NCBI RefSeq assembly: GCF_009695635.1
Contig: NZ_VUNN01000015.1
Coordinates: forward strand, 1 to 59,355
Length of the DNA stretch: 59,355 nt
Source of the DNA: Bullifex porci
GTDB taxonomy: Bacteria; Spirochaetota; Spirochaetia; Sphaerochaetales; Sphaerochaetaceae
Reading direction: 5' to 3'
In this document: in pieces, positions 24,650-40,562 of the stretch
Numbering within the stretch: position 1 is the stretch's first letter
How the letters are laid out: every line of letters starts with the position of its first letter
Position numbers and translations under genes: made by a program
Notes under the pieces: model-generated
What the model saw: only the letters and a program-made list of their open reading frames with translations
Databases searched by the model: none
What the model was told of the DNA's origin: nothing

Positions 24650-27523
24650 TTAAAGCTTACCCATTGCTTTTAAAATCTTTTCTGGTGTAATTGGCCAAGA
24701 GCGAACCCATGCACCTGTAGCATCGGCAATAGCCATAGCAATTGCAGGAGCTGCGCCATTAGTCGCAATTTCACTAATACTCTTTGCACCATATGGGCCA
24801 TATTGATCATTAACATCAATTAGTACAGCCTTAAAGTCCTCTGGAGCTTCACCAATCATAGGAGTTCCATAATCGGTAAGGTTTGCATTTACACATACTC
24901 CATCCTTATCAAGTACCATACCCTCATAAAGTGTATGTCCAATACTCTTCATTGCAGCGCCATACATTTGGCATAGTGCAATTTCAGGGTTTATTGGAGT
25001 ACCAGCATCCTGAAGCGCATAGAACTTCATGACCTTAACCTCTCCAGTTCTCTTATTAACTGCAACCTGAGCAAAGTGTGCACCATAAGGAATAGCATTA
25101 TTAGGTGTAACAAAGTATCCAGTTCCAACGAGCTGTCCATGACCTGTACCAGATAGAGTATCGTGGCTAAGCTTTGCATATGAAAGAGTTTTACCACTCT
25201 TTGTGCTATAAACCTCTCCAGGACTACGTAGGATTAAATCACTCTCATCCTCACCCATTTGGAAGCTTGCTTCCTTAATCATCTTCTTAACTAAATCCTC
25301 TGTTGCTTTTAGTGTTGCAGAAGCAGAGAAATAAGTTCCACTAGATGCATAAGCTCCGGTATCAAATAGACAGGAGTCTGTATCACCAGAGATAACTGCA
25401 ATCTTATCAAGAGAGATCTTAGTTTGCTCAGCTACAATCTTTGCTGAGATAGTATCTAGTCCAGTACCAATATCTGCACCACCACTTAATACTAGGAATG
25501 TACCATCTGTTAAGAGCTTTACTTGACAGTTAGAGTGGTCAAGTCCTGGAAGACCTGAGCCCTGCTGTATCATTGCAAAGCCTTTACCTATTGCCCAATC
25601 AGGATCAGAGGAGCTTTCCTTCTCACCCCACTTAATCATCTTTGCACCTTCCTCAAGAGCCTGCTTAACGCCACAGGAGCCTACAGGTACTATAGCACCC
25701 TCTCTTCCTTCTCCTAAGCCCTTTAGGATCTCAAGCATATAGCCCTCTTCTACAACATTCTTCTTAGCAACCTCTAATGGGTCTAGACCAAGCTTCCATG
25801 ATAGCTGTGCTAAGGCAGACATTATTGCGAAATATCCTTTTGGAGCACCATACCCTTGATATGCACCTGTTGGAGCGATGTTAGTGTAGTAGGTGTTAAG
25901 GTCATAGAACATATTCTTAACAGCAAATAGAGGAAGAGTCTTACTTGATGCATTCATAGGAACAGTTAGACAGTGGTTACCATAAGGACCAGTATTAGCT
26001 CTTACATCCATATAAATAGCTGTAATAGTTCCATCCTTCTTACCACCCATCTTAACTGTTAAGCGCATTGGGTGACGAGTAGAGTTAGCGATAAACTCCT
26101 CTTTTCTACTATTTCTGTAATAAATTGGCTTACCTGTGATGTATGTACAATAAGCACAAAGATCCTCAACTAGAATATCCTGCTTAGAGCCATAACCACC
26201 ACCAACTCTTTCCTTAATGATATGAACCTTATTTTCACTAAGTCCACAAACAGTTGCAACAATACGTCTAAGGTGCCAAGGTACTTGAGTAGATGCATGA
26301 ACAGTTAAACGTCCATTCTCAATTAAGGAATAGCAAACATGTGGCTCTAATGGAGTACACTGTACTTGGCTTGTTTGATATGTCTCCTCAACTATGGCAT
26401 CAGCTTCCTTAAAGCCCTCCTCAAGTGAGCCAATTCCACCATGAGCGCCAGCAGCAATGTTGTGTCTAATATCACCATGGAGAGGGAATTGATAAATTAC
26501 CTTACCATCTCTTTCGTCATAGCTCTTATTTTGCTCATCTAAATCGCTAGGAGCACCAACTACATATTCAATTTTACCATTATGAACTAGTGGAGCATTA
26601 TCGGCCATAGCCTCTTCTACAGTGAAGATAGCAGGAAGTGGCTCATATGTGACCTTAATAAGAGACATTGCCTTTTCACAGGTCTCTCTATCCTTTGCAA
26701 CAATAGCTGCTACACGGTCACCTACGTGACGAACCTTTCTGTTTATTAGCTTTCTATCATGTGGACTTGGTTCAGGATTTCCCTGTCCTGCAGACATGTA
26801 GTAAACATCAGGAACATTCTTCCAAGTAACAATTGCTTCAACACCCTCAAGGCTTTCAGCCTCACTTGTATCGATATCTTTTACATAGGCCATAGCATAT
26901 GGGCTTCTTAAAACCTCAAGAGCATATGCACCTGGCATAACCTTATCCTCAACAAATACTTTTTCGCCTCTAACTAGGCTATCACCATCGATTTTTCCTG
27001 TTGGCTTACCAATAACATCTAGATTTGGTCTAAAGGATGGAGAAACTGGAGTTTGGTAGCTACCTGTAGCTCTCTCCTCCTGAACAAGCTTTACAGCAAG
27101 ATAGAAGTGCTCATAGCCCGCATCACGAATAAAGACTGATGAAAGAGCATCCTTAACATCCTCTCTTGTTGCATCACTCTTGTGAGCCAAGAGGTGTGTT
27201 AGGATTAATGCGACTGTTGGAGAGTTATAAGCACTTTGAACAACTCCTGCAGCAACCATAGCTCTCTGAACATCATTAATCTTTCTATCCTTGATTAAGC
27301 TTTCAGCAGTAAAAATCTCAGCTCCCTCAGCCATAAATAGAGGGATAAGGTTAGAGGCTCTTACTTCATCATTGAAGATAATACAGTCACTACCTGCAAA
27401 GCCCTCTCTATCATCACTATCTCTAACACTATTTAGGCCCATAGAGTATAGAACATCTCTAAGAGGTGTCATCACATCAAGAGTTGATGATACTTTCTTA
27501 CCATTAAGAGTAAAACTAACCAT
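24650..27523 (-). CDS. xdhD: Molybdenum hydroxylase XdhD (probable selenium-dependent; purine-type substrate)
   Basis: 957 residues, essentially the length of E. coli XdhD (956) and collinear with it as I recall that sequence. Residues 1-150 are a ferredoxin/[2Fe-2S]-like domain that has lost its cluster cysteines (RDSDDREGFAGSDCIIF stands where C-x4-C-x2-C belongs). The molybdopterin domain follows, with HVGDRVAAIVA, RVGGGYGSKQD, GAYQGYGAPKG and GPYGAKSISE. Such enzymes use a molybdenum-cytosine-dinucleotide type cofactor and, in SelD-linked clusters, labile selenium. The role is hydroxylation of a purine-like heterocycle; the family was also named 'putative selenate reductase Mo subunit'. 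It is last in xdhA-xdhC-xdhB-ygfM-xdhD and overlaps ygfM by 8 nt. AAGGAGG precedes the ATG. Confidence 0.9.
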   Translation of the reverse strand: MVSFTLNGKKVSSTLDVMTPLRDVLYSMGLNSVRDSDDREGFAGSDCIIFNDEVRASNLIPLFMAEGAEIFTAESLIKDRKINDVQRAMVAAGVVQSAYNSPTVALILTHLLAHKSDATREDVKDALSSVFIRDAGYEHFYLAVKLVQEERATGSYQTPVSPSFRPNLDVIGKPTGKIDGDSLVRGEKVFVEDKVMPGAYALEVLRSPYAMAYVKDIDTSEAESLEGVEAIVTWKNVPDVYYMSAGQGNPEPSPHDRKLINRKVRHVGDRVAAIVAKDRETCEKAMSLIKVTYEPLPAIFTVEEAMADNAPLVHNGKIEYVVGAPSDLDEQNKSYDERDGKVIYQFPLHGDIRHNIAAGAHGGIGSLEEGFKEADAIVEETYQTSQVQCTPLEPHVCYSLIENGRLTVHASTQVPWHLRRIVATVCGLSENKVHIIKERVGGGYGSKQDILVEDLCAYCTYITGKPIYYRNSRKEEFIANSTRHPMRLTVKMGGKKDGTITAIYMDVRANTGPYGNHCLTVPMNASSKTLPLFAVKNMFYDLNTYYTNIAPTGAYQGYGAPKGYFAIMSALAQLSWKLGLDPLEVAKKNVVEEGYMLEILKGLGEGREGAIVPVGSCGVKQALEEGAKMIKWGEKESSSDPDWAIGKGFAMIQQGSGLPGLDHSNCQVKLLTDGTFLVLSGGADIGTGLDTISAKIVAEQTKISLDKIAVISGDTDSCLFDTGAYASSGTYFSASATLKATEDLVKKMIKEASFQMGEDESDLILRSPGEVYSTKSGKTLSYAKLSHDTLSGTGHGQLVGTGYFVTPNNAIPYGAHFAQVAVNKRTGEVKVMKFYALQDAGTPINPEIALCQMYGAAMKSIGHTLYEGMVLDKDGVCVNANLTDYGTPMIGEAPEDFKAVLIDVNDQYGPYGAKSISEIATNGAAPAIAMAIADATGAWVRSWPITPEKILKAMGKL

Positions 27524-28217
27524 TGAGTGCCTCCTTCAAGATTTCATAGTTTTCTTTGATTAAATACTTTTTATATTCACTCGATCCAGTAATATCACTC
27601 TTGATATCACTACTCATAGCCTGCTCAAGAGAGAAGAATATACCACTATTAGAAACTGCACAGAAGTATCCATTTTCACTTAATGCAGAGGTAACTGCTG
27701 CATGAGTTGAGCTTGTTAATGATTCTCTTTTATTAACAACCTTAACTAAAGGATTAATTAAAATACCAACGATAAGACAGCTACAGCTTCCTTTCTCAAC
27801 ATATTTCTTTAATGAACAAACCTTCTCCTCACTAGAAAAAACTACTAGCTTTGCATCATATGCAAGAAGTGTTGGAATTAGGTAGCTATCAAATCGTAGA
27901 GATGCAATATTTCCACCAATAGTTGCAGCATTCTTTAAAGCTCTTGAGGAAAGATATTTACATGCTTCCTTTAAAGGCTTAGGTACTATTGAGGATGCTA
28001 AAAGCTCTGAAAAGGTAACGGTTGAGGAGATGAAAATATCATCTCCCTTAGCTTCTATTTTCTTTTCAATTAAAGAAGAAATAGGAATAACGCTATCACC
28101 TTTAACAGGAGAATTTAAACGTAAAGCCTCTGTACCACCAGCAAGATAAATAGCATTTAAATTTTCTTTCTTTGCTTTTACACATTCACATAAGGATGAT
28201 TTCTTGATTAGTTCCAT
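27516..28217 (-). CDS. ygfM: FAD-binding subunit of the XdhD molybdenum hydroxylase
   Basis: 233 residues, FAD-binding type 5 (CO dehydrogenase/xanthine dehydrogenase medium subunit). Visible are LAGGTEALRL for the pyrophosphate loop, SRALKNAATIGGNIASLR, and SSEYKKYLIKENYEIL at the end. It is short and divergent compared with the neighbouring XdhB, as E. coli YgfM is. It overlaps xdhD by 8 nt and is preceded by GGAGG. It should pass electrons from the XdhD site to FAD and on to a redox partner, possibly YgfK. Confidence 0.85.
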   Translation of the reverse strand: MELIKKSSLCECVKAKKENLNAIYLAGGTEALRLNSPVKGDSVIPISSLIEKKIEAKGDDIFISSTVTFSELLASSIVPKPLKEACKYLSSRALKNAATIGGNIASLRFDSYLIPTLLAYDAKLVVFSSEEKVCSLKKYVEKGSCSCLIVGILINPLVKVVNKRESLTSSTHAAVTSALSENGYFCAVSNSGIFFSLEQAMSSDIKSDITGSSEYKKYLIKENYEILKEALNG

Positions 28218-28229
28218 GAGTCCTCCTTA

Positions 28230-29093
28230 CTATTGGATAATTCCTTCGTCTCCACCCTTTGCGACCTCTGAGAGGAAATAATCTAGCATACGTCTAGTTG
28301 AATTTCTTCTCCAAGTAGCCATAGCTCTAGGTGAAATTGTTTGGTCATGAGTATTAAGGATATCCTCCTTTAATGCTGGGATATCTTCTAGCTTCTTACC
28401 AATTAGCTTAGCTTCATTAGCCTTGTTTCTAGCAACCTTAGGACCTGCAGCACCACTAGAGACTCTAAAGTCCTTAATTATTCCATCCTCAACATAAATT
28501 AAAGCAGATAACGATAGCTTACTAATTGCATTAGCCTTACGAGTTCCTATCTTTCTATAGTATCCATATGTGTATTTAACATTTGGAATACGAATAGCTG
28601 TGATAATCTCATCATCTGCTAAAGCAGTCTTCTTACTACCCTTGATAAATTCATCAACTAAAATTTCTCTAGTTGAATTTATGCTTTGTAAAACAACAGT
28701 TGCATCAAGAAGAATTAATGGCTGAGGTAAATCGCCCTTAGGAGAAGCATTTCCTAAGTTTCCTCCGATAGTAGCACTATTTCTTAATGAGATAGCACCC
28801 ATTAGGGATGCTGCCTTTCTTACGAAGAAAGGAACGTCTTCACAGCTAGCTATCTCAGCTGAGGTTGTCAACGCACCAATTAATACAGAGCCATCCTCTT
28901 CCTTTTTTATTCCCTTAAGCTCATTAAGTGAGGACATAATCATTACAGGGAAAGGGAACTCTGGAACAACTCCAGTTCCTCTTCTGTACTGAACCATAAG
29001 GTCAGAGCCACCAGCAAGAGGCATTGCGTGGACCTCTGCTCTAAGCTTTAATGCTTCTTCAAGTGTTGATGGAATATATGTTTCGTTTACCAT
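28230..29093 (-). CDS. xdhB: Xanthine dehydrogenase FAD-binding subunit
   Basis: 287 residues, near the E. coli XdhB length. PLAGGSDLMVQYRRG is the FAD pyrophosphate loop. MGAISLRNSATIGGNLGNASPKGDLP is the second FAD signature of the family. The C-terminal part SPRAMATWRRNSTRRMLDYFL is the CO-dehydrogenase-flavoprotein C domain. Its start overlaps the xdhC stop by 7 nt, and GGAGAAGG precedes it. It forms the three-subunit enzyme with XdhA and XdhC. Confidence 0.92.
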   Translation of the reverse strand: MVNETYIPSTLEEALKLRAEVHAMPLAGGSDLMVQYRRGTGVVPEFPFPVMIMSSLNELKGIKKEEDGSVLIGALTTSAEIASCEDVPFFVRKAASLMGAISLRNSATIGGNLGNASPKGDLPQPLILLDATVVLQSINSTREILVDEFIKGSKKTALADDEIITAIRIPNVKYTYGYYRKIGTRKANAISKLSLSALIYVEDGIIKDFRVSSGAAGPKVARNKANEAKLIGKKLEDIPALKEDILNTHDQTISPRAMATWRRNSTRRMLDYFLSEVAKGGDEGIIQ

Positions 29094-29560
29094 AAGCCTT
29101 CTCCCTTTTTGCTAGCAAGCAATATGGATTCAACTATTAAATCATAACCAGTACAGCGACAGATATTTCCGCTAATAGCAAGTCTAATATCAGCTTCTGT
29201 TGGATGAGGATTATTCATTAATAAAGCTTCAGCTGCCATAACCATACCTGGAATACAGAAGCCACACTGTACAGCACCACCCTCAGCAAAGCTCTCGACT
29301 AAGCACTTACCCTGTGGAGTATCGCGTAAGCCCTCGATAGTAATGATTTCACAGCCACCAACTGCACCTACAGGTATAATACATGATGTTACCAGCTTAC
29401 CATCCTTTAAAACTGAGCATGCACCACACTCACCTTCACCACAACCTTCCTTAGTACCGGTGATACCAAAGTCATCACGTATTACATCCAAAAGCCTCTT
29501 TAATGGATTACCATCAAAGGCAACAGGCTTTCCATTTAGTTTGAATTCTATCATGCTCAT
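29087..29560 (-). CDS. xdhC: Xanthine dehydrogenase [2Fe-2S] subunit
   Basis: 157 residues with two [2Fe-2S] centres. The first is plant-ferredoxin-like (KEGCGEGECGACSV with a later VTSC). The second is the C-terminal helical cluster VQCGFCIPGMVMAAEALL together with ISGNICRCTGY. Start and the xdhA stop overlap as ATGA. It is the only gene in the operon with the complete cluster cysteines, so it may serve both XdhA and XdhD. Confidence 0.94.
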   Translation of the reverse strand: MSMIEFKLNGKPVAFDGNPLKRLLDVIRDDFGITGTKEGCGEGECGACSVLKDGKLVTSCIIPVGAVGGCEIITIEGLRDTPQGKCLVESFAEGGAVQCGFCIPGMVMAAEALLMNNPHPTEADIRLAISGNICRCTGYDLIVESILLASKKGEGLW

Positions 29561-31689
29561 CTTCTTAATCCTTCAATATCTTCAACTGGGATAGGAATCT
29601 TAGTACATGTAATACCAAGAGCTCTTTCAACAGCATCAACATAGGCAGCATCTGTACCATTAAAAACAAGCTCACCCATGCCCTTTGCACCAAATGGTCC
29701 CCATGGATATGGGTTATCAACAAAGAAATATTCCTGCTTAGGGAAGTCCATACTAGTTGGAATAACGTAATCTGACATACTTGATTGCTTGAAGTGTCCA
29801 GTAGTATTTTCCATCTTCTCCATAGCAGCATATCCAAGTGATTGCATTACACCACCATTTACCTGTCCATGAACAATTAGCTCATCAATTGGCTTACCAA
29901 TATCATGGCTAGTCCAAACACCCTTAACAGTAACCTCGTTAGTAAGCTTATCGACCTCTACCTCAACACATGCAGCACCCCATCCGTAACCAAGGTATGC
30001 ATCGCCCTTGAAGGTTGACTGATCCCATGGATGTCCCTCTGGGTGCTCATATTGAACCTCAACCTCAGCATGCTCCTCATTCATCTTTTCCTTCATCAAA
30101 AGAGCAGCTCTATAGCCAAGATTACCAACGATCATCGTTGATCTTGAAGCAGCTGTAGGACCTGAGTCTGGTACTAAATCTGTATTTGGAGCATCAAATA
30201 CTACTTCATCCATTCCAACCTCAAGTGTTGAAGCTACAATCTTTCTAAGAGCGGTTCTAAAGCCCTGACCCATCTCTGTTTGGCCACAAAGTACAGTGAA
30301 TTTATCACCATCCTTAACTAGCTTTAAGCGACCCTTAATAATTGCCTGCTCACCATTACCAGTAAAGGCACCACCGTGGTTATAGAAGCTAATACCAATA
30401 CCCCTACCTGAGCCATAGCCATACTCTGCACTCTTTCTGTAGTAATCACTAGCAGATGTAATTTGCTCCATCATCTCAGGAAGCTTAACATCTTCAATAA
30501 TATGGCCCTCAGTTACTGTTTCATCACCTTTTTTTAAGAAGTACTTCTTCTTATAAATTGCAGGATCATAACCGAATTTTCTAGCAATATGATCAAGGTG
30601 AGTCTCTATAGCGAAGATTGTTTGAGGAGCTCCAAAGCCTCTAAATGCACATGATGGGAAGGTATTTGTAGCCATACCATAGCCCTCAATCCTTGTACTA
30701 GGGAAGTTATAAACACCATTAGCATGGAATACACCTCTCTGTAAAACTACATAGGAGGAGGATAAATATGCACCACAGTTGTAATATACCTTGATATCAC
30801 TACCTAAGATATTTCCATCACGATCTACACCTGTTCTAAACATAATCTTTGAAGGGTGTCTCTTAACAGAATAGAGCATATCCTCTTCTCTATCAAAGCT
30901 TAATTGAATAGGCTTTTTAATGATACTTTCAGCAAGAAGAAGAGGTCCTGCTAATACATCAGGGAAGTGCTCCTTACCACCAAATGCACCACCAGTAACT
31001 GTTTGCTTAACTACAATATCCTCAGGGTTTAAGCCTAAAAGCCCGCAAATACTCTTTCTAATGTAGAAAGGACATTGAGCTGAGGCATAGATAACATATC
31101 TACCATCCTCGATAGTTGCAATTGCACCATTAGTCTCTAGGTGCACATGCTCCTGGAAGCCAGTTTCAATGGTCTCTTCAATTACCTCTGCAGCCTTAGA
31201 AAGTACTTCATTAATATCTTCTCCCTTATCACTTACAAGAGAGCACATTATATTATTCTCTTTACAAAGAGGAGCTGCTTCATTTTTTATAGCATCATCA
31301 ATTGTAACGACAGGAGTTTCTTCTGTGTATGTAATCTCAAATTCTTTATAAAGCTTATCAAGAACGCCACGATCAGAACCAACTAAAATACCAATTGTTT
31401 CACCAACATACTTTACGTCACCATCGGCAAAGCAGCGCCAATCATCAGCGATCATCTTCAAAGCATTCTTACCATTCTCTGGGATATCTTTTGCGCTGAT
31501 AAAGTAATACCCATCAGGAAGTGATGGCACCTTAATGCGATCAATTCTTCCACGAGCAATCGTTGAACGAATGAGTCGAGAATAAAGCATTGAATCAAAC
31601 TTTAGGTCTGCAAGATATATTGCTTCCCCTCTAGCCTTTTCAACTGCATCAACTCTCTTGATCTTATCATCAATATGAGTAACTGACAT
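29557..31689 (-). CDS. xdhA: Xanthine dehydrogenase molybdenum-binding subunit
   Basis: 710 residues of the aldehyde oxidase/xanthine dehydrogenase large-subunit family. VTGGAFGGKEHFPD is the cofactor loop. FPSCAFRGFGAPQTIFA carries the arginine/phenylalanine stretch. LCGQTEMGQGFRTAL, TAASRSTMIVGN and WGPFGAKGMGEL, with the catalytic glutamate, complete the active site. The frame is open to 31707, but GGAGGC precedes the ATG at 31689 (MSVTHIDD). It is the first gene of its transcription unit, with a promoter at 31774-31801 and paired direct repeats at 31809-31827. Confidence 0.92.
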   Translation of the reverse strand: MSVTHIDDKIKRVDAVEKARGEAIYLADLKFDSMLYSRLIRSTIARGRIDRIKVPSLPDGYYFISAKDIPENGKNALKMIADDWRCFADGDVKYVGETIGILVGSDRGVLDKLYKEFEITYTEETPVVTIDDAIKNEAAPLCKENNIMCSLVSDKGEDINEVLSKAAEVIEETIETGFQEHVHLETNGAIATIEDGRYVIYASAQCPFYIRKSICGLLGLNPEDIVVKQTVTGGAFGGKEHFPDVLAGPLLLAESIIKKPIQLSFDREEDMLYSVKRHPSKIMFRTGVDRDGNILGSDIKVYYNCGAYLSSSYVVLQRGVFHANGVYNFPSTRIEGYGMATNTFPSCAFRGFGAPQTIFAIETHLDHIARKFGYDPAIYKKKYFLKKGDETVTEGHIIEDVKLPEMMEQITSASDYYRKSAEYGYGSGRGIGISFYNHGGAFTGNGEQAIIKGRLKLVKDGDKFTVLCGQTEMGQGFRTALRKIVASTLEVGMDEVVFDAPNTDLVPDSGPTAASRSTMIVGNLGYRAALLMKEKMNEEHAEVEVQYEHPEGHPWDQSTFKGDAYLGYGWGAACVEVEVDKLTNEVTVKGVWTSHDIGKPIDELIVHGQVNGGVMQSLGYAAMEKMENTTGHFKQSSMSDYVIPTSMDFPKQEYFFVDNPYPWGPFGAKGMGELVFNGTDAAYVDAVERALGITCTKIPIPVEDIEGLRR

Positions 31690-31773
31690 GAAGCCTCCAT
31701 TTACCATTATATTTACTTATTTATAATGGAATTATATCAACTAAAAGGATTTATATGATACCATCCCTCTTTC

Positions 31774-31801
31774 AGTATACAACATAGCGATAAAAATGCA
31801 A
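31774..31801 (-). promoter_or_regulatory. Predicted promoter of the xdhA operon
   Basis: TTGCAT (minus strand, 31796-31801), a 16-bp spacer and TATACT (31774-31779). The leader is about 80 nt. The suboptimal -35 fits a promoter needing activation. Confidence 0.55.
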
Positions 31802-31808
31802 AAGAAAT

Positions 31809-31827
31809 TGAAACAAAATGCAACAAA
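31809..31827 (-). promoter_or_regulatory. Paired direct repeats, putative activator site of the xdhA operon
   Basis: On the minus strand TTTGTTGCA (31819-31827) and TTTGTTTCA (31809-31817) repeat in the same orientation with exactly 10 bp between starts. The pair begins 7 bp upstream of the -35 box. A matching pair lies upstream of ygfK (36465-36483). Confidence 0.5.
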
Positions 31828-31836
31828 TTACAACCC

Positions 31837-31872
31837 AAAAAAAAACCACCGAACAATTATGAACGGTGGTTT
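31837..31872 (-). terminator. Terminator after ssnA
   Basis: ACCACCG and CGGTGGT pair around a 12-nt loop on the minus strand, followed by a run of T residues. It separates ygfK-ssnA from the xdhA operon downstream. Confidence 0.92.
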
Positions 31873-31894
31873 AAAACTTTTTCCCTTTTCGGTA

Positions 31895-33229
31895 TTAAGG
31901 TTTAATTTTATCTACAGTATTCCAAACTCTCTGGGCAACACGACGTGCTTCCTCATAGATCTTATTTTCATCAAGGCCGAGGAAAGCTCTATTTTCAAGG
32001 ATAATCTTACCATCAACGATTACAGTGTTAACACAGTTACTACTCATACCCCAGACAAAGTGTCCTGCAGCATTTGCACTAACTAATGGAGTTGGAGCCT
32101 GGTAATCAAGGAGAGCTAAGTCAGCAGTATATCCCTCTTCAACACGTCCCCACTTTCTTCCATCATTAAAGCTCTTCTCAATAAGTCTATTACCACGATT
32201 AAGAGCATTAACAAACTCAGCAGGCCAGAAAGGAAGCCCCTCATCCTTATGCTTAAAGAAGGAAATCTTAAGCTCCTCAAACATATTGCCACCACAGCCA
32301 TCTGTACCAATTACAAGATTCTTTATTATTGGAAGATTCTTGCAATACCCAACATGGTTGTTCATGTTACTTCTTCCATTATGAGCAAAGAAGCAATCTC
32401 TTTCGTTAATAGTTCTTATTTCCTTTTCAGAAAGGTGAAGTCCATGTACTAATAGAGTCTTGTCTGTTAATAGGCCAAAGCGATCAAGACGATCGATGAT
32501 ATCCTCATTGTACATATGGTGTGACCATACTACATCGTACTTATCCTCAGCTACATGAAGGTGCATTCCTCTACCTGTTTCCTTCATAGCTTCACTCATC
32601 ATAGCTAAGCCCTCATCAGGGATAGTAAATGGAGCATGACCACCAATCATAGCTTCGACAAGAACCTTCTTATGCTTTTTCTTCTCATCAACCTCTTTTG
32701 CAAAGCGGATATTTTCTTCAACACCACTCTTTACCTCTTCAAGACCCCCATTACGATCTGTTATCTCATAACAGGTTGAGCCTCTAAGGCCTACCTCCTC
32801 CATACCCTTTGCAATAGTTGAAAGAGATCCCTTGATGTAGGAAGGTGAAGCATGATGGTCAATAGCACAGGTAGTACCAGCTTTAATTGCATCCATTGAG
32901 CAAATAAGAGAAGAGTAGTAGCATGCCTCCTCATCGAGCCCGCGGTCTAAGCGCCACCACCACTCCTTAAGGACCTGGATAAAATCTGTTTGAGGACCTG
33001 CTGAGATTAGCATGCCTCTAGATAGACCTGAGTAATAGTGGTGATGAGAGCATACATTACCAGGGATTAAAGTCTTATTTGTGCCATCGATAACCTTATC
33101 AGCTACAGCATTTAAACCAGCTCCAACCTTCTTAATAATGCCATTATCAATCAAAACATCCATATTCTCCTTTACTTCAAATGGAGCTTCTGTCTGCATT
33201 ATTCTTACATTCTTAATTAATATTGCCAT
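31895..33229 (-). CDS. ssnA: SsnA aminohydrolase, selenium/purine cluster
   Basis: Metal-dependent amidohydrolase of 444 residues, close to E. coli SsnA (442). The metal-binding HxH lies in SHHHYYSGLSRG near residue 61. AMIGGHAPFTIPDEGL, MHLHVAEDKYD and LVHGLHLS supply later metal ligands, and VIGTDGCGGNMFEE has the final aspartate. It is related to guanine and chlorohydrolase-type deaminases and is thought to deaminate a purine-breakdown intermediate. The true start is the ATG at 33229, one nt after the ygfK stop, with GGAGG inside the end of ygfK. It is followed by a strong terminator. Confidence 0.93.
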   Translation of the reverse strand: MAILIKNVRIMQTEAPFEVKENMDVLIDNGIIKKVGAGLNAVADKVIDGTNKTLIPGNVCSHHHYYSGLSRGMLISAGPQTDFIQVLKEWWWRLDRGLDEEACYYSSLICSMDAIKAGTTCAIDHHASPSYIKGSLSTIAKGMEEVGLRGSTCYEITDRNGGLEEVKSGVEENIRFAKEVDEKKKHKKVLVEAMIGGHAPFTIPDEGLAMMSEAMKETGRGMHLHVAEDKYDVVWSHHMYNEDIIDRLDRFGLLTDKTLLVHGLHLSEKEIRTINERDCFFAHNGRSNMNNHVGYCKNLPIIKNLVIGTDGCGGNMFEELKISFFKHKDEGLPFWPAEFVNALNRGNRLIEKSFNDGRKWGRVEEGYTADLALLDYQAPTPLVSANAAGHFVWGMSSNCVNTVIVDGKIILENRAFLGLDENKIYEEARRVAQRVWNTVDKIKP

Positions 33230-33230
33230 A

Positions 33231-36200
33231 TTACTCCTCCACACTATTTAGAAGATATGAATATCTTGTTATTACACGATTGATGATAGCTAAAAGCTCT
33301 TCATCAAGCTCGATATCTGCATGATCATCAAATACCTTACCCTCAATTATCTTTCCATCGACTCTTGCGATAATCTTCTCTGCAAAGATGAAGAAGCCTG
33401 AGTTCGTACTATTTTCAAAGTCATCCTTTCTTGAGAAGAGTGTAAACTTCTTAAGGTATGGACCACCATCATGAGGACAGAAGGTTGCACAGTTACCACA
33501 TTCATTACAATATGCATCGATATGTAGAATTTGGAATGGATCATCAAAGAGACCTGTATCTCTTAAATCAATTGCCATATTTGCACGGTTAGGACAAACC
33601 TCTACACACTTATTACATAGGTATGAGCACTCAACACAGCGACAAGCCTCTGTTTTCATGAATTCCTTAGAGGAGCATTTATCACAGGATCTTAAGATTC
33701 TTGACTTTCTCTCTCTAATTGACTGGAAGAATTCATTCTCCTCAGCTTCTAATTCCTCATCAGAGTACTCCTCTTCACTATCATGACAGCCGCAATCACA
33801 ATTATCATCATGACAGCCACAATCACAATCCTCATCATGCTCACTTTCAGCAACCTCAGACTCAAGCTTAGCAATTACAGCATCAATAGCTCTATCAACT
33901 GCACTACGAGCAGATGCAATACATCTTACAACTGTTGTAGGACCAGTTAATGAGTCACCAACGATGTATACACCCTCACTATCTGTTGGATATCCATCTA
34001 CTATACTAACTCCAAGGGATGCAAACATATCACAATCAGGCTTATTACCTGTAGCTGTAATAATAGCACTACAGTTAAGTGTAATTACCTCTCCTGTATC
34101 CTCAGGTCTTCTTCTACCAGACTTATCCTTCTCTCCAAGCTTCATAACTGAGAGTGTTAATACGCCATTTTCAAGCTTCTTAGGATTTGTTAGGAATGCA
34201 AACTTAACACCATCCTCTAGAGCAGCTTCATATTCTTCTCTATCAGCAGGCATCTCAGCAAAGCTTCTTCTATAAACAACTGTTACTTTTGCACCCTTTC
34301 TTATAGCGGCTCTTGCAGCATCCATAGCAGTATTACCACCACCAACAACGATAACATCGGAGCCTAAGCTATATTCCTCTCCCTTCTTATCTGAGCCAAG
34401 GAAGGTGGTTGCATCAACAATTAGCCCCTCACCCTCAATATTAATCTTATTCTCTTTCTCTGCACCAATAGCATAGAAGATATAATCAAAGCCCTGACTC
34501 TTAAGCTTTTCAATTTTTACATCTTCAGGTGTAACTGAGTAGTGGATATCAACTCCATTACTAAGGATGAAATTAACATCTCTTTCAACTACCTCGCGAG
34601 GGATTCTGAACTCTGGAATAATGTTAGAAACAACACCACCAGCACAGCTTTCTCTTTCGAAGATTTCAGTCTTAAAGCCAGCTCTAGCTAAGAAAAGTGC
34701 AGCAGATAAGCCAGCTGGACCAGCACCAACTACAGCAGCCTTAACATTTGCTGGTTCACTTGGCTTTTCCCAAATCTCAGAGAGATATTCATCTAAGCCC
34801 TGCTGGGCAGCTAATCTCTTCATCTCTCTAATCTTTACTGGACCCTCATAATCGAGTCTTGTACAGTGGTTTTGACACTGATGGTCACAAATCCAACCAG
34901 TAATATTAGGTAAAGCATTCTTATCTAAGATTACAGCAAGAGCCTCAGCAACCTTACCCTCACCCATAAGCTGAACATATTCAGGAATATCCTGGTGAAT
35001 AGGACATGCACTTACACATGGAGAAACATAACAATCTGTTAAGGTAAGAGGTGTTGAATCCTTAGCCTTATTTGTCCCTCTAAAGTCCTTATTGATAAAA
35101 TACTTTCTATCGCGTGCCTTAGTATTTAAAGCCTCAAGCTTTGAGTTATCTATTTCATTCATCTTCCAGCCATCTGAGCTATAAGCGATCTCACAAAGCT
35201 GCTTCATTCTATTGTAGCCACCTGGCTTAAGCATATCTGTTGCAAGTGTAATAGGATGAATACCTGATTCAAATAGATCCTTAACTGTCAAAGCATTAGC
35301 TCCACCAGAATATGAGATAGGAAGCTTACCATCAAATTCCTTAGATAAGCGAAGAGCAACGCTAGTTGAAATAGGAAGAAGAGTTCTACCAGACATATAC
35401 ATCTCATCGCCAGGTAAAACACCTTGGTCATTCACAGAGCCAAGAGTATTAGTAAGCTTTACTCCAAAGCCTCTATTTTCCTTCTTTGCTAATGCAATTA
35501 AGCGTGTGAGCATTGTAATTGCATCGCCATATTGTAAATCATGCTCAAAGCTTTCTCTCTTTAAGCCAACATATACATAACCAAGCTCATCTAGAATTCT
35601 TCTAACCTCATCAAAGCCAAGAAGAGTAGGATTAAGCTTTACAAATGTATCAATATGCTTTTCAGTAAGCATATATGTACAAATTGCTTCAATTTCCTTA
35701 GGTGGACAGCCATGCATTGTTGAAATAGTTACAGATGGACTAATTTTTTTACTAATCTTTGGTAGCATCTTTACAACACTACTCTCTAACCCCTCCCAAG
35801 GAGTACCTGCTAAGAAGCCATCCTCAAAGACCTTCTTTACACTATCAATATAACCATCAAAGCGTCCATCAACATCTGCATCGAGCATTGAGTTGATAAA
35901 CTTCTGCATTCTTTCAGTCTTAATACCCTCAAGGTTATATCCAACACTCATGTTAAATATAAAGGAAGGCTTTTCAAACTTTCCACCCTGCATGAGAGTT
36001 TCAATAATATGTAAAATAATCCAAGCCTTTAAATACTCATCATATGCTTTAGGAAGTGTATATTCTGTTGACCACTCAACGTTATAACCCTCATCACGAG
36101 CATCTATACATGGCTTTGCAATCTCAAGAGTATCCATAATTTGGACAGTCTTAAGTTCGATAAATCTCGCACCAGTTAGATATGCAGCGATAATATTTTG

Positions 36201-36398
36201 AGCAAGCTGAGTATGTGGACCTGCAGCAGGACCTAATGGAGTAACACACTCCTGATTAAAAACCTTTATTGCTTTATCCTTTTTAGGAACATAAAATTCA
36301 CTTTCATGAATAGAGAAAACAGAACCTTCATTTCTGTACTCACCGACGATTCTTTCTAATAAATTTACAAAAGGAACCGGACGCATTTTATCTGCCAT
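33231..36398 (-). CDS. ygfK: YgfK, FAD/NAD(P)/Fe-S oxidoreductase (putative selenate reductase subunit)
   Basis: 1055 residues; E. coli YgfK is slightly shorter. Residues 1-440 resemble dihydropyrimidine/dihydroorotate dehydrogenases (TISTMHGCPPKEIEAI near 226). About 455-530 is the Cys-rich Fe-S domain of glutamate-synthase small subunits (SPCVSACPIHQDIP and CDHQCQNHC). About 550-850 binds FAD (GAGPAGLSAALF) and NAD(P)H (VVGGGNTAMDAARAA), with VYIVGDSLTGPTTVVRCI. About 900-985 holds ferredoxin-type clusters (CVECSYLCNKCVEVCP and CNECGNCATFCP). An unusual Asp/Cys/His repeat, CDCGCHDDNCDCGCHD, occupies about 857-872 between them. It likely shuttles electrons between NAD(P)H and the hydroxylase or reduces a heterocycle. 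Promoter and repeats are at 36429-36483. Confidence 0.93.
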   Translation of the reverse strand: MADKMRPVPFVNLLERIVGEYRNEGSVFSIHESEFYVPKKDKAIKVFNQECVTPLGPAAGPHTQLAQNIIAAYLTGARFIELKTVQIMDTLEIAKPCIDARDEGYNVEWSTEYTLPKAYDEYLKAWIILHIIETLMQGGKFEKPSFIFNMSVGYNLEGIKTERMQKFINSMLDADVDGRFDGYIDSVKKVFEDGFLAGTPWEGLESSVVKMLPKISKKISPSVTISTMHGCPPKEIEAICTYMLTEKHIDTFVKLNPTLLGFDEVRRILDELGYVYVGLKRESFEHDLQYGDAITMLTRLIALAKKENRGFGVKLTNTLGSVNDQGVLPGDEMYMSGRTLLPISTSVALRLSKEFDGKLPISYSGGANALTVKDLFESGIHPITLATDMLKPGGYNRMKQLCEIAYSSDGWKMNEIDNSKLEALNTKARDRKYFINKDFRGTNKAKDSTPLTLTDCYVSPCVSACPIHQDIPEYVQLMGEGKVAEALAVILDKNALPNITGWICDHQCQNHCTRLDYEGPVKIREMKRLAAQQGLDEYLSEIWEKPSEPANVKAAVVGAGPAGLSAALFLARAGFKTEIFERESCAGGVVSNIIPEFRIPREVVERDVNFILSNGVDIHYSVTPEDVKIEKLKSQGFDYIFYAIGAEKENKINIEGEGLIVDATTFLGSDKKGEEYSLGSDVIVVGGGNTAMDAARAAIRKGAKVTVVYRRSFAEMPADREEYEAALEDGVKFAFLTNPKKLENGVLTLSVMKLGEKDKSGRRRPEDTGEVITLNCSAIITATGNKPDCDMFASLGVSIVDGYPTDSEGVYIVGDSLTGPTTVVRCIASARSAVDRAIDAVIAKLESEVAESEHDEDCDCGCHDDNCDCGCHDSEEEYSDEELEAEENEFFQSIRERKSRILRSCDKCSSKEFMKTEACRCVECSYLCNKCVEVCPNRANMAIDLRDTGLFDDPFQILHIDAYCNECGNCATFCPHDGGPYLKKFTLFSRKDDFENSTNSGFFIFAEKIIARVDGKIIEGKVFDDHADIELDEELLAIINRVITRYSYLLNSVEE

Positions 36399-36428
36399 AA
36401 CGAGCCTCCACGTGGTTTATCTAATTTT

Positions 36429-36456
36429 ATTGTACCCTACTTTGATGATAAGTCAA
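36429..36456 (-). promoter_or_regulatory. Predicted promoter of ygfK-ssnA
   Basis: TTGACT (minus strand, 36451-36456), a 16-bp spacer and TACAAT (36429-36434). A ribosome binding site GGAGGC lies before the ygfK ATG. Confidence 0.65.
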
Positions 36457-36464
36457 CAACGATT

Positions 36465-36483
36465 TGCAACAAACCGCAACATA
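36465..36483 (-). promoter_or_regulatory. Paired direct repeats, putative activator site of ygfK-ssnA
   Basis: On the minus strand TTTGTTGCA (36465-36473) has a 7-of-9 copy, TATGTTGCG (36475-36483), exactly 10 bp further upstream. The pair starts 8 bp from the -35 box, and 36 bp from the -10 box against 35 bp in the xdhA promoter. Confidence 0.5.
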
Positions 36484-38098: not shown

Positions 38099-39823
38099 AT
38101 GCGTATACATCCAACAACAATATTAGGAAGACTGATAATCTACTTTTTGATTATCATGTTTATTCCGCTACTAATATTTTTAATATTCTTTAACTACTAT
38201 AACGCCAAGGGTGTATATGGTGTACTTGAGCAGCAAGCAAAGGTATTAATTAAAGCAGATGGTCAATTAATAGAGAAAAAGATGGAAGAATATAGGCATA
38301 TTGCCTATTCAATAGGAACAAATGAGCTAGTAATAGATGCCCTAGAGGATGATGTATTAACAGATAATGAAGCCTCACAACTATATACAACAATGTATGT
38401 TTTGCTTAATTCTGACTCCATGCATGCCGATGCCCATATAGTTTCTGTATCAGGTAAAAGTAGATTATCCTCAGGTATTTTCCCAGATGAATATGATACT
38501 CGCTTCCAAACAAATGAGTGGAATAGAAAAAATATTATTGCAGAAGCAAATACTCGACGTGATTTAGGTAGAGCCTCCCTATTTTTTATTGGAGATCATA
38601 GAGTAAATAACGATGGAGAACAAATCCTTTTTTCTATATTAAGAAATATCTTTTCAGATGATGGAACAATGCTAGGATATGTAATTGTAGATGTATATAC
38701 CGAAGCAGTTATTCCAGAGCTTACAAACGGAAGTATATTTAAGGATGTTATCTTAGTCGATAATACTCTTTACTCAGCCTTTTCACTAAACCATCCAAAT
38801 ATGTATGGTAGCTTCGATAAATTCCCATTTCTTCGTGATGACTCTATTCAAAAGTACTATTACTACTTTCCATCAGGGCTTTTCTATGTTGTTGGATATA
38901 TAGATACAACTATATTTAAGGGTAGCTCAGAGAGACTCTTTGCATCTATTACTATTGCCCTACTACTAGGTACACTAGTTTCAGTTATACTCTCATTTAT
39001 CTTTTCTCACTCTCTATCAAAAAGAATTAACAACATGATAAAGAACATGAAATACATAGAGGAAGGGAACCTAAATATATATCTTGAGGAAACTGGAATC
39101 GTAGAATTTAATGAGCTAGCAGCTTCCTTTAATACTATGATTACTAAAATAATTTACTTAATCCAAAGTCGTAGTGAGGAGGCTGCAAAGGCTGCTGAGG
39201 CAGAGAGAAAGGCTTTGGAGAGCCAGCTTAATCCCCATTTTATCTTTAATACCCTTAATACAATTAAAGCGTTAGCAAAGCTACACAATGAAACAGATAT
39301 CTATACAATCTCATTGCAGCTGGGAAAGCTTCTTCGTTCCTCATTAAAGAACCACTCCTCAACATGCCTACTTTCAGAGTCTATTGAGCTTACTAAAAGC
39401 TATCTTGCTATTCAAAAAATTAGATTTAGCGATAGACTAACATATACTATCGAAACTCATGATACTCCTTGTGATACCATCCTAACTCCTAAGCTAATAA
39501 TCCAACCATTAGTAGAAAATGCAGTTGTACATGGACTTGAGCCAGGAATGGGGGGAGTTACAATTGAAATAGATATCAAAAAGGTATTAAATAATATTTA
39601 TATATCTATAAAGGATAATGGCTGTGGAATGGATAACCCAGAGCTATTTAATGATATGAGTCAGCTAGAGGATAGCGGCCATGTAGGTATATATAATATA
39701 TATAGAAGACTTCAGCTTAGGTATGGAAATAGCTTTACATTTGAAGTTAAAACAGGTCCAAATGAGGGCTTTAAGGTTAATATTGTTATTCCAGTAGAGG
39801 AGGATAAAAATGGAAACACTTAG
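38099..39823 (+). CDS. Sensor histidine kinase, YesM/LytS type
   Basis: 574 residues. Membrane helix 1 (LIIYFLIIMFIPLLIFLIFF) is followed by an extracytoplasmic sensing region to about residue 275 and membrane helix 2 (ITIALLLGTLVSVILSFIF). Next come a HAMP linker, the His_kinase box QLNPHFIFNTLNTI with the phosphorylated His at about 380, and the ATPase motifs QPLVENAVVHG and IKDNGCGM. The next gene, overlapping by 14 nt, is its YesN-type regulator. Such pairs usually control a neighbouring sugar ABC transporter, which fits 40565-45539. No ribosome binding site is seen. A -10 box TATCAT (38086-38091) ends 7 nt before the ATG. Confidence 0.92.
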   Translation: MRIHPTTILGRLIIYFLIIMFIPLLIFLIFFNYYNAKGVYGVLEQQAKVLIKADGQLIEKKMEEYRHIAYSIGTNELVIDALEDDVLTDNEASQLYTTMYVLLNSDSMHADAHIVSVSGKSRLSSGIFPDEYDTRFQTNEWNRKNIIAEANTRRDLGRASLFFIGDHRVNNDGEQILFSILRNIFSDDGTMLGYVIVDVYTEAVIPELTNGSIFKDVILVDNTLYSAFSLNHPNMYGSFDKFPFLRDDSIQKYYYYFPSGLFYVVGYIDTTIFKGSSERLFASITIALLLGTLVSVILSFIFSHSLSKRINNMIKNMKYIEEGNLNIYLEETGIVEFNELAASFNTMITKIIYLIQSRSEEAAKAAEAERKALESQLNPHFIFNTLNTIKALAKLHNETDIYTISLQLGKLLRSSLKNHSSTCLLSESIELTKSYLAIQKIRFSDRLTYTIETHDTPCDTILTPKLIIQPLVENAVVHGLEPGMGGVTIEIDIKKVLNNIYISIKDNGCGMDNPELFNDMSQLEDSGHVGIYNIYRRLQLRYGNSFTFEVKTGPNEGFKVNIVIPVEEDKNGNT

Positions 39824-40562
39824 TCTTGTTATCATCGAAGATGAAAAGATAATGCTAGAAGAACTTGTAAGTACAATCGACTGGGCTTCCATTGGACTTA
39901 CTGTTATAGGAACTGCAGAGGATGGCTTAAAGGGTGAAATGCTAATAAAGGAGAGTAATCCAGATATAATTATTACAGATATTCGACTTCCTCTACAGGA
40001 TGGCTTAACAATGGTATCAAAATGTCCATTATTAGATCAAAATGTATTGGTACTATCTGGATATACAGACTTCGAATACACAAGAAAGGCTATTCAGCTT
40101 GGAGTATATGATTACATCGAAAAGCCCTTTGATGATGAGGAGCTTTTAAAGGTTTGTGGTCAGCTTGCAGATAAAATTAGAGAGGAGCATAAGAATGAAA
40201 AGCAGGAGGAAGGATCCTTCCATATCAATCTTCCAACAGGCTTTCATAACCATCAAATTAGCTGTGTAGTTAATTTTATTAAGGAAAACTATGAAAAGGC
40301 TATTGGTCTTTCTGATGCAGCTGAAGCTATTAAGCTATCTGAAAACCACCTATCAACACTATTTAAAGAGGTTACAGGAATTAATTTCTTACAATATCTA
40401 AATGCATATAGATTAAATATGGCAATTGATCTTATGAAGGAGGGAGGAGTCAATATCTCAGAAATCGCACCACGCTGTGGCTTCCAAAATCCAGGATACT
40501 TTGCAAAGATCTTTAAACGATATTTTGGCATGACTCCTACTCAATTTAGAGACCAGCTATAA
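39810..40562 (+). CDS. Response regulator with AraC-type DNA-binding domain (YesN type)
   Basis: 250 residues. The receiver domain has the acidic pair in IIEDE, the phosphorylated Asp57 in IIITDIRLP, and the lysine in YIEKPFDDEE. Two helix-turn-helix motifs at the C-terminus are of AraC/XylS type (AIKLSENHLSTLFKEVTG, then ISEIAPRCGFQNPGYFAKIFKRYFG). GGAGG lies upstream of the ATG inside the kinase gene. It is convergent with the binding-protein gene 2 nt away. It is shorter than many YesN proteins because it lacks a linker domain. Confidence 0.94.
   Translation: METLSLVIIEDEKIMLEELVSTIDWASIGLTVIGTAEDGLKGEMLIKESNPDIIITDIRLPLQDGLTMVSKCPLLDQNVLVLSGYTDFEYTRKAIQLGVYDYIEKPFDDEELLKVCGQLADKIREEHKNEKQEEGSFHINLPTGFHNHQISCVVNFIKENYEKAIGLSDAAEAIKLSENHLSTLFKEVTGINFLQYLNAYRLNMAIDLMKEGGVNISEIAPRCGFQNPGYFAKIFKRYFGMTPTQFRDQL

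Follow-up and report, generated by a model that had tools for sequence, protein, structure and literature searches.

The promoters of two neighbouring purine operons in the stretch of Bullifex porci DNA analysed here (the window; 59,355 nucleotides) share a tandem repeat. Comparison with other genomes confirmed this repeat pair as a family-wide pattern, and it appears to be a real control site of gut-type spirochaetes. We think it likely that the pair serves as operator for a purine/nitrogen-salvage regulator shared across the family, a 319-amino-acid HTH-(divergent WYL barrel)-WCX protein that would activate promoters carrying the site upstream and shut off its own gene. This proposal builds on direct observations of the site, its conservation and positions, the genes behind it, the co-occurrence of the regulator and a site before the regulator gene.

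A tandem repeat precedes two purine operons

The first gene after the repeat at 36466 encodes a ygfK-type flavin/FeS oxidoreductase (33231..36398, minus strand; Pfam domains, relatives to 85% identity) and is followed by the aminohydrolase gene ssnA (31895..33244, minus strand; NF005540/TIGR03314 over cut-off). The repeat at 31810 precedes a gene for a xanthine dehydrogenase-type Mo-binding subunit (29557..31707, minus strand; XdhA/PucD models below cut-off, E 1e-110) and the remaining Mo-hydroxylase operon, which encodes an FeS subunit, two FAD-type subunits and a Se-type Mo/FeS subunit (24650..29560, minus strand; TIGR03313 over cut-off and related models). The ygf, yge, ssnA and xdh genes have a role in anaerobic purine degradation, the control of which is, to our knowledge, unclear in most gut bacteria. 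A histidine kinase and an AraC-type response regulator, encoded divergently at 38099-40562, adjoin the SHMT-type gene that precedes ygfK, and the kinase is also present at the corresponding place in one other genome (G057, L158). The binding sites of AraC-type regulators differ from simple 10-bp repeats.

On the minus strand, positions 31827-31809 on the xdh side read TTTGTTGCATTTTGTTTCA, i.e. TTTGTTGCA-T-TTTGTTTCA, and positions 36483-36465 on the ygfK side read TATGTTGCGGTTTGTTGCA, i.e. TATGTTGCG-G-TTTGTTGCA. Each pair consists of two 9-mers with a 10-bp period, in agreement with the original prediction of near copies with 10 bp between their starts at both places. The pair had been placed with its beginning 7-8 bp upstream of the -35 box; instead, it ends 6-8 bp upstream of it. 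The predicted distance of 35 or 36 bp to the -10 hexamer was reproduced as the interval between the last bases of the pair and of the -10 box (35 bp at xdh, 36 bp at ygfK). The two promoters, described as unlinked, belong to neighbouring operons 4.7 kb apart, and no match was found within the window before the glyA and arg genes, as had been reported.

The tandem operator of ygfK-ssnA, TGTTGCGGTTTGTTGC (36466..36481, minus strand, corresponding to the pair at 36465-36483), matches the family consensus exactly. A weak, in-phase third copy, TGTTGCAAATCGTTGT (36456..36471, minus strand; 2 mismatches), runs into the ygfK -35 box TTGACT (36451..36456, minus strand), which was scored independently of the site and is separated by a 16-bp spacer from the -10 box TACAAT (36429..36434, minus strand), 47 bp from the site start. 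The operator of the xdh operon, TGTTGCATTTTGTTTC (31810..31825, minus strand, corresponding to the pair at 31809-31827), has 1 mismatch and is kept in two close relatives (L029 and L034). It is accompanied by a weak in-phase upstream copy, GGTTGTAATTTGTTGC (31820..31835, minus strand; 2 mismatches), and followed by the -35 box TTTGCA (31797..31802, minus strand; alternatively TTGCAT, 31801-31796) and the -10 box TATACT (31774..31779, minus strand), 46 bp from the site start, as called by promoter scoring. Allowing at most 1 mismatch, TGTTGCN4TGTTGC occurs only at these two places in the window (0.18 expected; a count of 2 is reached in 3 of 100 shuffles). With at most 2 mismatches, the window contains 6 matches versus 4.4 expected from shuffles, and such matches are thus no commoner than chance would produce. 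The evidence from the window alone is modest.

The site is conserved across the family

We searched for the site in the 2.42-Mb genome containing the window (G000) and in related genomes, the named ones being Spirochaetales/Sphaerochaetaceae-type MAGs; all genome-wide counts are pattern searches. A first, loose pattern was too degenerate (97 matches versus 59 for the control). Position counts gave the consensus TGTTGCR-N3-TGTTGCR, a direct repeat with a 10-bp period and a 16-bp pattern. Among 61 family genomes, exact sites numbered 273 versus 6 for the reversed control pattern, and 57 of the 61 genomes contained the exact pattern. A sample drawn from the whole phylum, some members of the family among them, gave matches in only 68 of 296 genomes. 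The comparison with other genomes, 273 versus 6, is the reason why we judge the pair as certain, and the scan proposed with the original prediction to see whether the pattern is common at random AT-rich sites shows that it is not noise. The proposed check in relatives had the same outcome, the site being kept at orthologous ygfK and xdhA promoters. These counts, together with the fixed spacing of the site at orthologous promoters, refute an origin by chance or as a promoter-composition artefact of AT-rich DNA, to which we assign next to no probability even though matches with two mismatches are not enriched in the window.

All 16 Sphaerochaetales-type ygfK loci first inspected have the site, which is absent from 14 other inspected ygfK loci, mostly of other spirochaetes, and overall it is found 5' of ygfK in 29 distinct promoters. 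In one distant relative the ygfK promoter has two tandem operators, 36 bp apart (L044 520-571). The A required by a palindromic reading (TTGCAA-N4-TTGCAA or GCAA-N4-TTGC) is present in only 15 of 28 ygfK sites, 2 of 11 arcC sites and 3 of 16 ygeW/ygeY sites; because these bases are not conserved, we rejected the palindrome and read the site as a direct repeat. A gapped scan with GTTGCN{0,28}GTTGC was dropped as a spacing test, as codon-phase pairs inside genes dominate among the matches listed.

Predicted regulon

In the G000 genome, sites precede not only ygfK-ssnA and the xdh operon but also genes for a xanthine-type permease (C4) and a uracil-type permease (C20), the carbamate kinase gene arcC (C5), two nucleoside-type ABC operons (C23 and C56, the latter including a purine nucleoside phosphorylase), a carA-like gene (C15, degenerate site), the glutamine synthetase III gene glnN (C19), ygeW beside selD (C1) and ygeY (C8). 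Relatives add adenine deaminase/purine permease genes and a ygeX-type lyase. For several genes the name was assigned by reading the protein sequence and not by a profile search. The genes behind the sites are predicted to form one purine/nitrogen-salvage regulon, much wider than the two operons in the window. Contig C8 has two copies of a ∼150-bp promoter segment that contains the site together with a TACGAACGTTCGTTCGTA palindrome (G000:C8:31047 and C8:33182; L254 3063 and 5198); one copy lies before a TetR-type gene and the other, reversed, upstream of ygeY.

A candidate regulator with a WYL-like fold

One site, in genome G011, lies directly before a regulator gene. The encoded 319-aa winged-helix protein (G000:C34:121241-122197) is our best candidate for the reader of the site. 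Of the 61 family genomes, 51 have it as a single copy, with mostly 53-78% identity, and the first 40 residues of the protein, including the recognition helix, are almost invariant among the copies. The upstream region of its own gene contains a site with at most 1 mismatch in 31 of 45 loci. A good site lies downstream of the called -10 box in 23 of 31 such promoters, and in G000 it overlaps the -35. This G000 promoter also contains a reversed half-site, which faces the pair and creates the palindrome GCAACAAACCTTGTTGC (G000:C34:121160-121200; L230 ∼1670-1700), and reversed half-sites recur 5' of other regulator copies.

Among 30 genomes with ygfK, the regulator was found in 15 of the 16 with a ygfK site and, at full length, in none of the 14 without one (Fisher p 2e-7), one of the latter having a partial, distant match. 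Likewise, the presence of at least 2 sites was associated with that of the regulator across the 61 family genomes (Fisher p 2e-4). Both p-values overstate independence, because the genomes are related and the tests are uncorrected for relatedness. The distant relative L044 has both a ygfK site and the regulator, though its ygfK is only 49% identical. Within the family, the regulator was not found in the zero-site genomes G006, G022 and G030; G016 has the regulator and no exact site, and sites without a detected regulator occur in G019 (96% complete), in G034 and in a few genomes of lower completeness.

A different protein, such as an OmpR/PhoB-type response regulator, could bind the site, with the WYL-like regulator being merely one of its targets. 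The usual OmpR/PhoB operator consists of 10-11 bp direct repeats upstream of the -35, a feature shared by the 10-bp repeat described here, while the sites of known WYL regulators are inverted repeats or pseudo-palindromes. We regard such a binder as improbable, as the presence of the WYL-like regulator tracks the site across genomes and we found no other regulator gene that has its own conserved site; the position of the site at this gene resembles autoregulation.

The candidate regulator has the domain order winged HTH, helical module, barrel and WCX domain. HTH_11 scored over cut-off in the G000 copy and the N-terminal HTH was detected in 30 of 30 members; the WCX domain (PF25583) was present in 28 of 30, just over cut-off in the G000 copy, and the C-terminal region gave a profile match to DriD residues 247-323. 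The Pfam WYL model (PF13280) misses the regulator and is not among the members' listed Pfam families, yet it finds four other genes in G000, and hence the barrel is divergent. A full-length predicted model of modest confidence (pLDDT 77, pTM 0.47) had DriD, PafBC, CapW and BrxR as its top 26 Foldseek matches (E 3e-12 for DriD). Structure comparison gave Z 12 over 258 residues at an rmsd of 19; this rmsd and the low whole-chain TM-scores result from a different arrangement of the domains in the model. The best matches thus suggest a DriD/PafBC-like fold and a relative of the WYL-fold proteins. The nearest distant homologues outside the family (L243 1-2340, G315:C9; G254:C1:2141861-2142685) are the HTH-WYL-like N-terminal portion of a long frame that continues into an apparent Cas3-type HD/helicase.

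Promoter geometry and proposed mechanism

Promoters were scored without reference to the site, and distances were measured from the site start to the -10 box. The distance was 46-48 bp at 28 of 29 ygfK promoters, the exception (L035, 56 bp) being one helical turn further away, and 46-48 bp at 3 of 4 xdhA promoters. At ygeW (44-47 bp in 12 of 12) and ygeY (44-46 bp in 4 of 4) the site has the reverse orientation, yet the same position. Carbamate kinase promoters have an extended -10 and a distance of 24 bp in 9 of 11 cases, and therefore the first half-site supplies the -35. The ygfK promoter is near consensus (TTGACT-16-TACAAT), and at ygeW and ygeY the match to a -35 box is poor (TAGACA, TTTACA, TTGCTA).

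We propose that a dimer of the regulator contacts a single helix face, where it recognizes the two TGTTGCR half-sites in a head-to-tail arrangement. In front of ygfK, ygeW, ygeY and xdh, the dimer would have its centre ∼51 bp before the transcription start, immediately above the -35, and would recruit RNA polymerase. At the carbamate kinase gene the site would replace the -35 element, and at the regulator's own gene, mostly with the site just downstream of the -10, binding would shut off transcription. The WYL-like barrel may sense a signal related to purines or nitrogen. The sign of regulation, with activation from upstream sites and negative autoregulation, is what we infer from the site positions. 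Of the original proposal of one activator acting from one helix face next to RNA polymerase, a single regulator with fixed geometry serving one pathway agrees with the comparative data throughout; it may not be a pure activator, because the site overlaps the core promoter or lies behind it at arcC and at the gene of the regulator.

These positions count against our explanation, as they would also suit a pure repressor. The same regulator, bound to the same operator, could repress everywhere until released by purines or nitrogen limitation, by covering the -35/spacer at carbamate kinase, blocking its own start and blocking the alpha-CTD region at ygfK, ygeW and xdh. The arcC sites lie exactly at the expected -35, 24 bp from the -10, and the own-gene sites follow the -10, as in the fold relative BrxR, a repressor that binds downstream of its own -10 (PMC9122601). 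Moreover, the near-consensus ygfK promoter is strong by itself and may need no activator. We nevertheless think repression at all sites rather unlikely: the fixed -51 spacing, the one-turn exception and the use of both orientations are typical of contact with RNA polymerase and not of occlusion, the -35 boxes of ygeW and ygeY are poor, and DriD and PafBC, which come closest in fold, act as activators.

Comparison with known systems

DriD of Caulobacter crescentus is a WYL activator of sigma-70-type promoters whose -35 boxes are poor; the distance between its site and the -10 is fixed, and it makes contact with the alpha-CTD and beta parts of the polymerase (PMC12340889). For this reason we adopted the polymerase-contact model for the upstream sites. 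The candidate regulator shares with DriD the wHTH, helical module, WYL-type barrel and WCX domain, the fixed -10 distance and the site before its own gene. In contrast, the DriD site is a 20-bp pseudo-palindrome (ATACGAC-N7-GTCGTAT) overlapping the -35, and hence the arrangement described here, with a 16-bp direct repeat above the -35, would be new. DriD also responds to ssDNA and controls DNA-damage genes, whereas purine genes are the predicted targets here and Pfam WYL is undetected. PafBC, a mycobacterial DNA-damage activator, has the same domain order by fold (9fnd, 6sj9) but is a heterodimer with a DNA-damage regulon. The phage-defence regulators BrxR and CapW share the wHTH and WYL fold and the autoregulatory site downstream of the -10, but repress defence islands and use inverted repeats. 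PucR of Bacillus, an activator likewise tied to purine catabolism, was rejected as the regulator, as G000 has no match to HTH_30 (PucR-type). The site of lambda CII, TTGC-N6-TTGC, is a direct repeat near the -35. It has core words and spacing identical to those of the repeat described here. The phage protein CII is unrelated, however, and its site lies on both sides of the -35; we take this as a resemblance only. The term for the CII site is present in PMC2629481.

Implications

Our search of the open-access literature, covering Sphaerochaeta regulons and WYL combined with purine or xanthine dehydrogenase, found no description of this system. We see evenly balanced chances that a WYL-fold lineage from DNA damage and phage/CRISPR defence became the master switch of purine/nitrogen salvage in Sphaerochaetaceae-type spirochaetes, reading head-to-tail repeats instead of palindromes and having lost the WYL signature from a changed barrel that plausibly senses a purine-related small molecule. 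The nearest distant relatives of the regulator found here are fused to Cas3, as read from the open frame. If true, the direct-repeat operator raises the question of asymmetric binding by a homodimer, and the WYL-fold family would reach from DNA damage and defence into metabolism. The genes described here would then be the first defined purine-degradation regulon for gut-associated spirochaetes, with an operator and a named candidate regulator.
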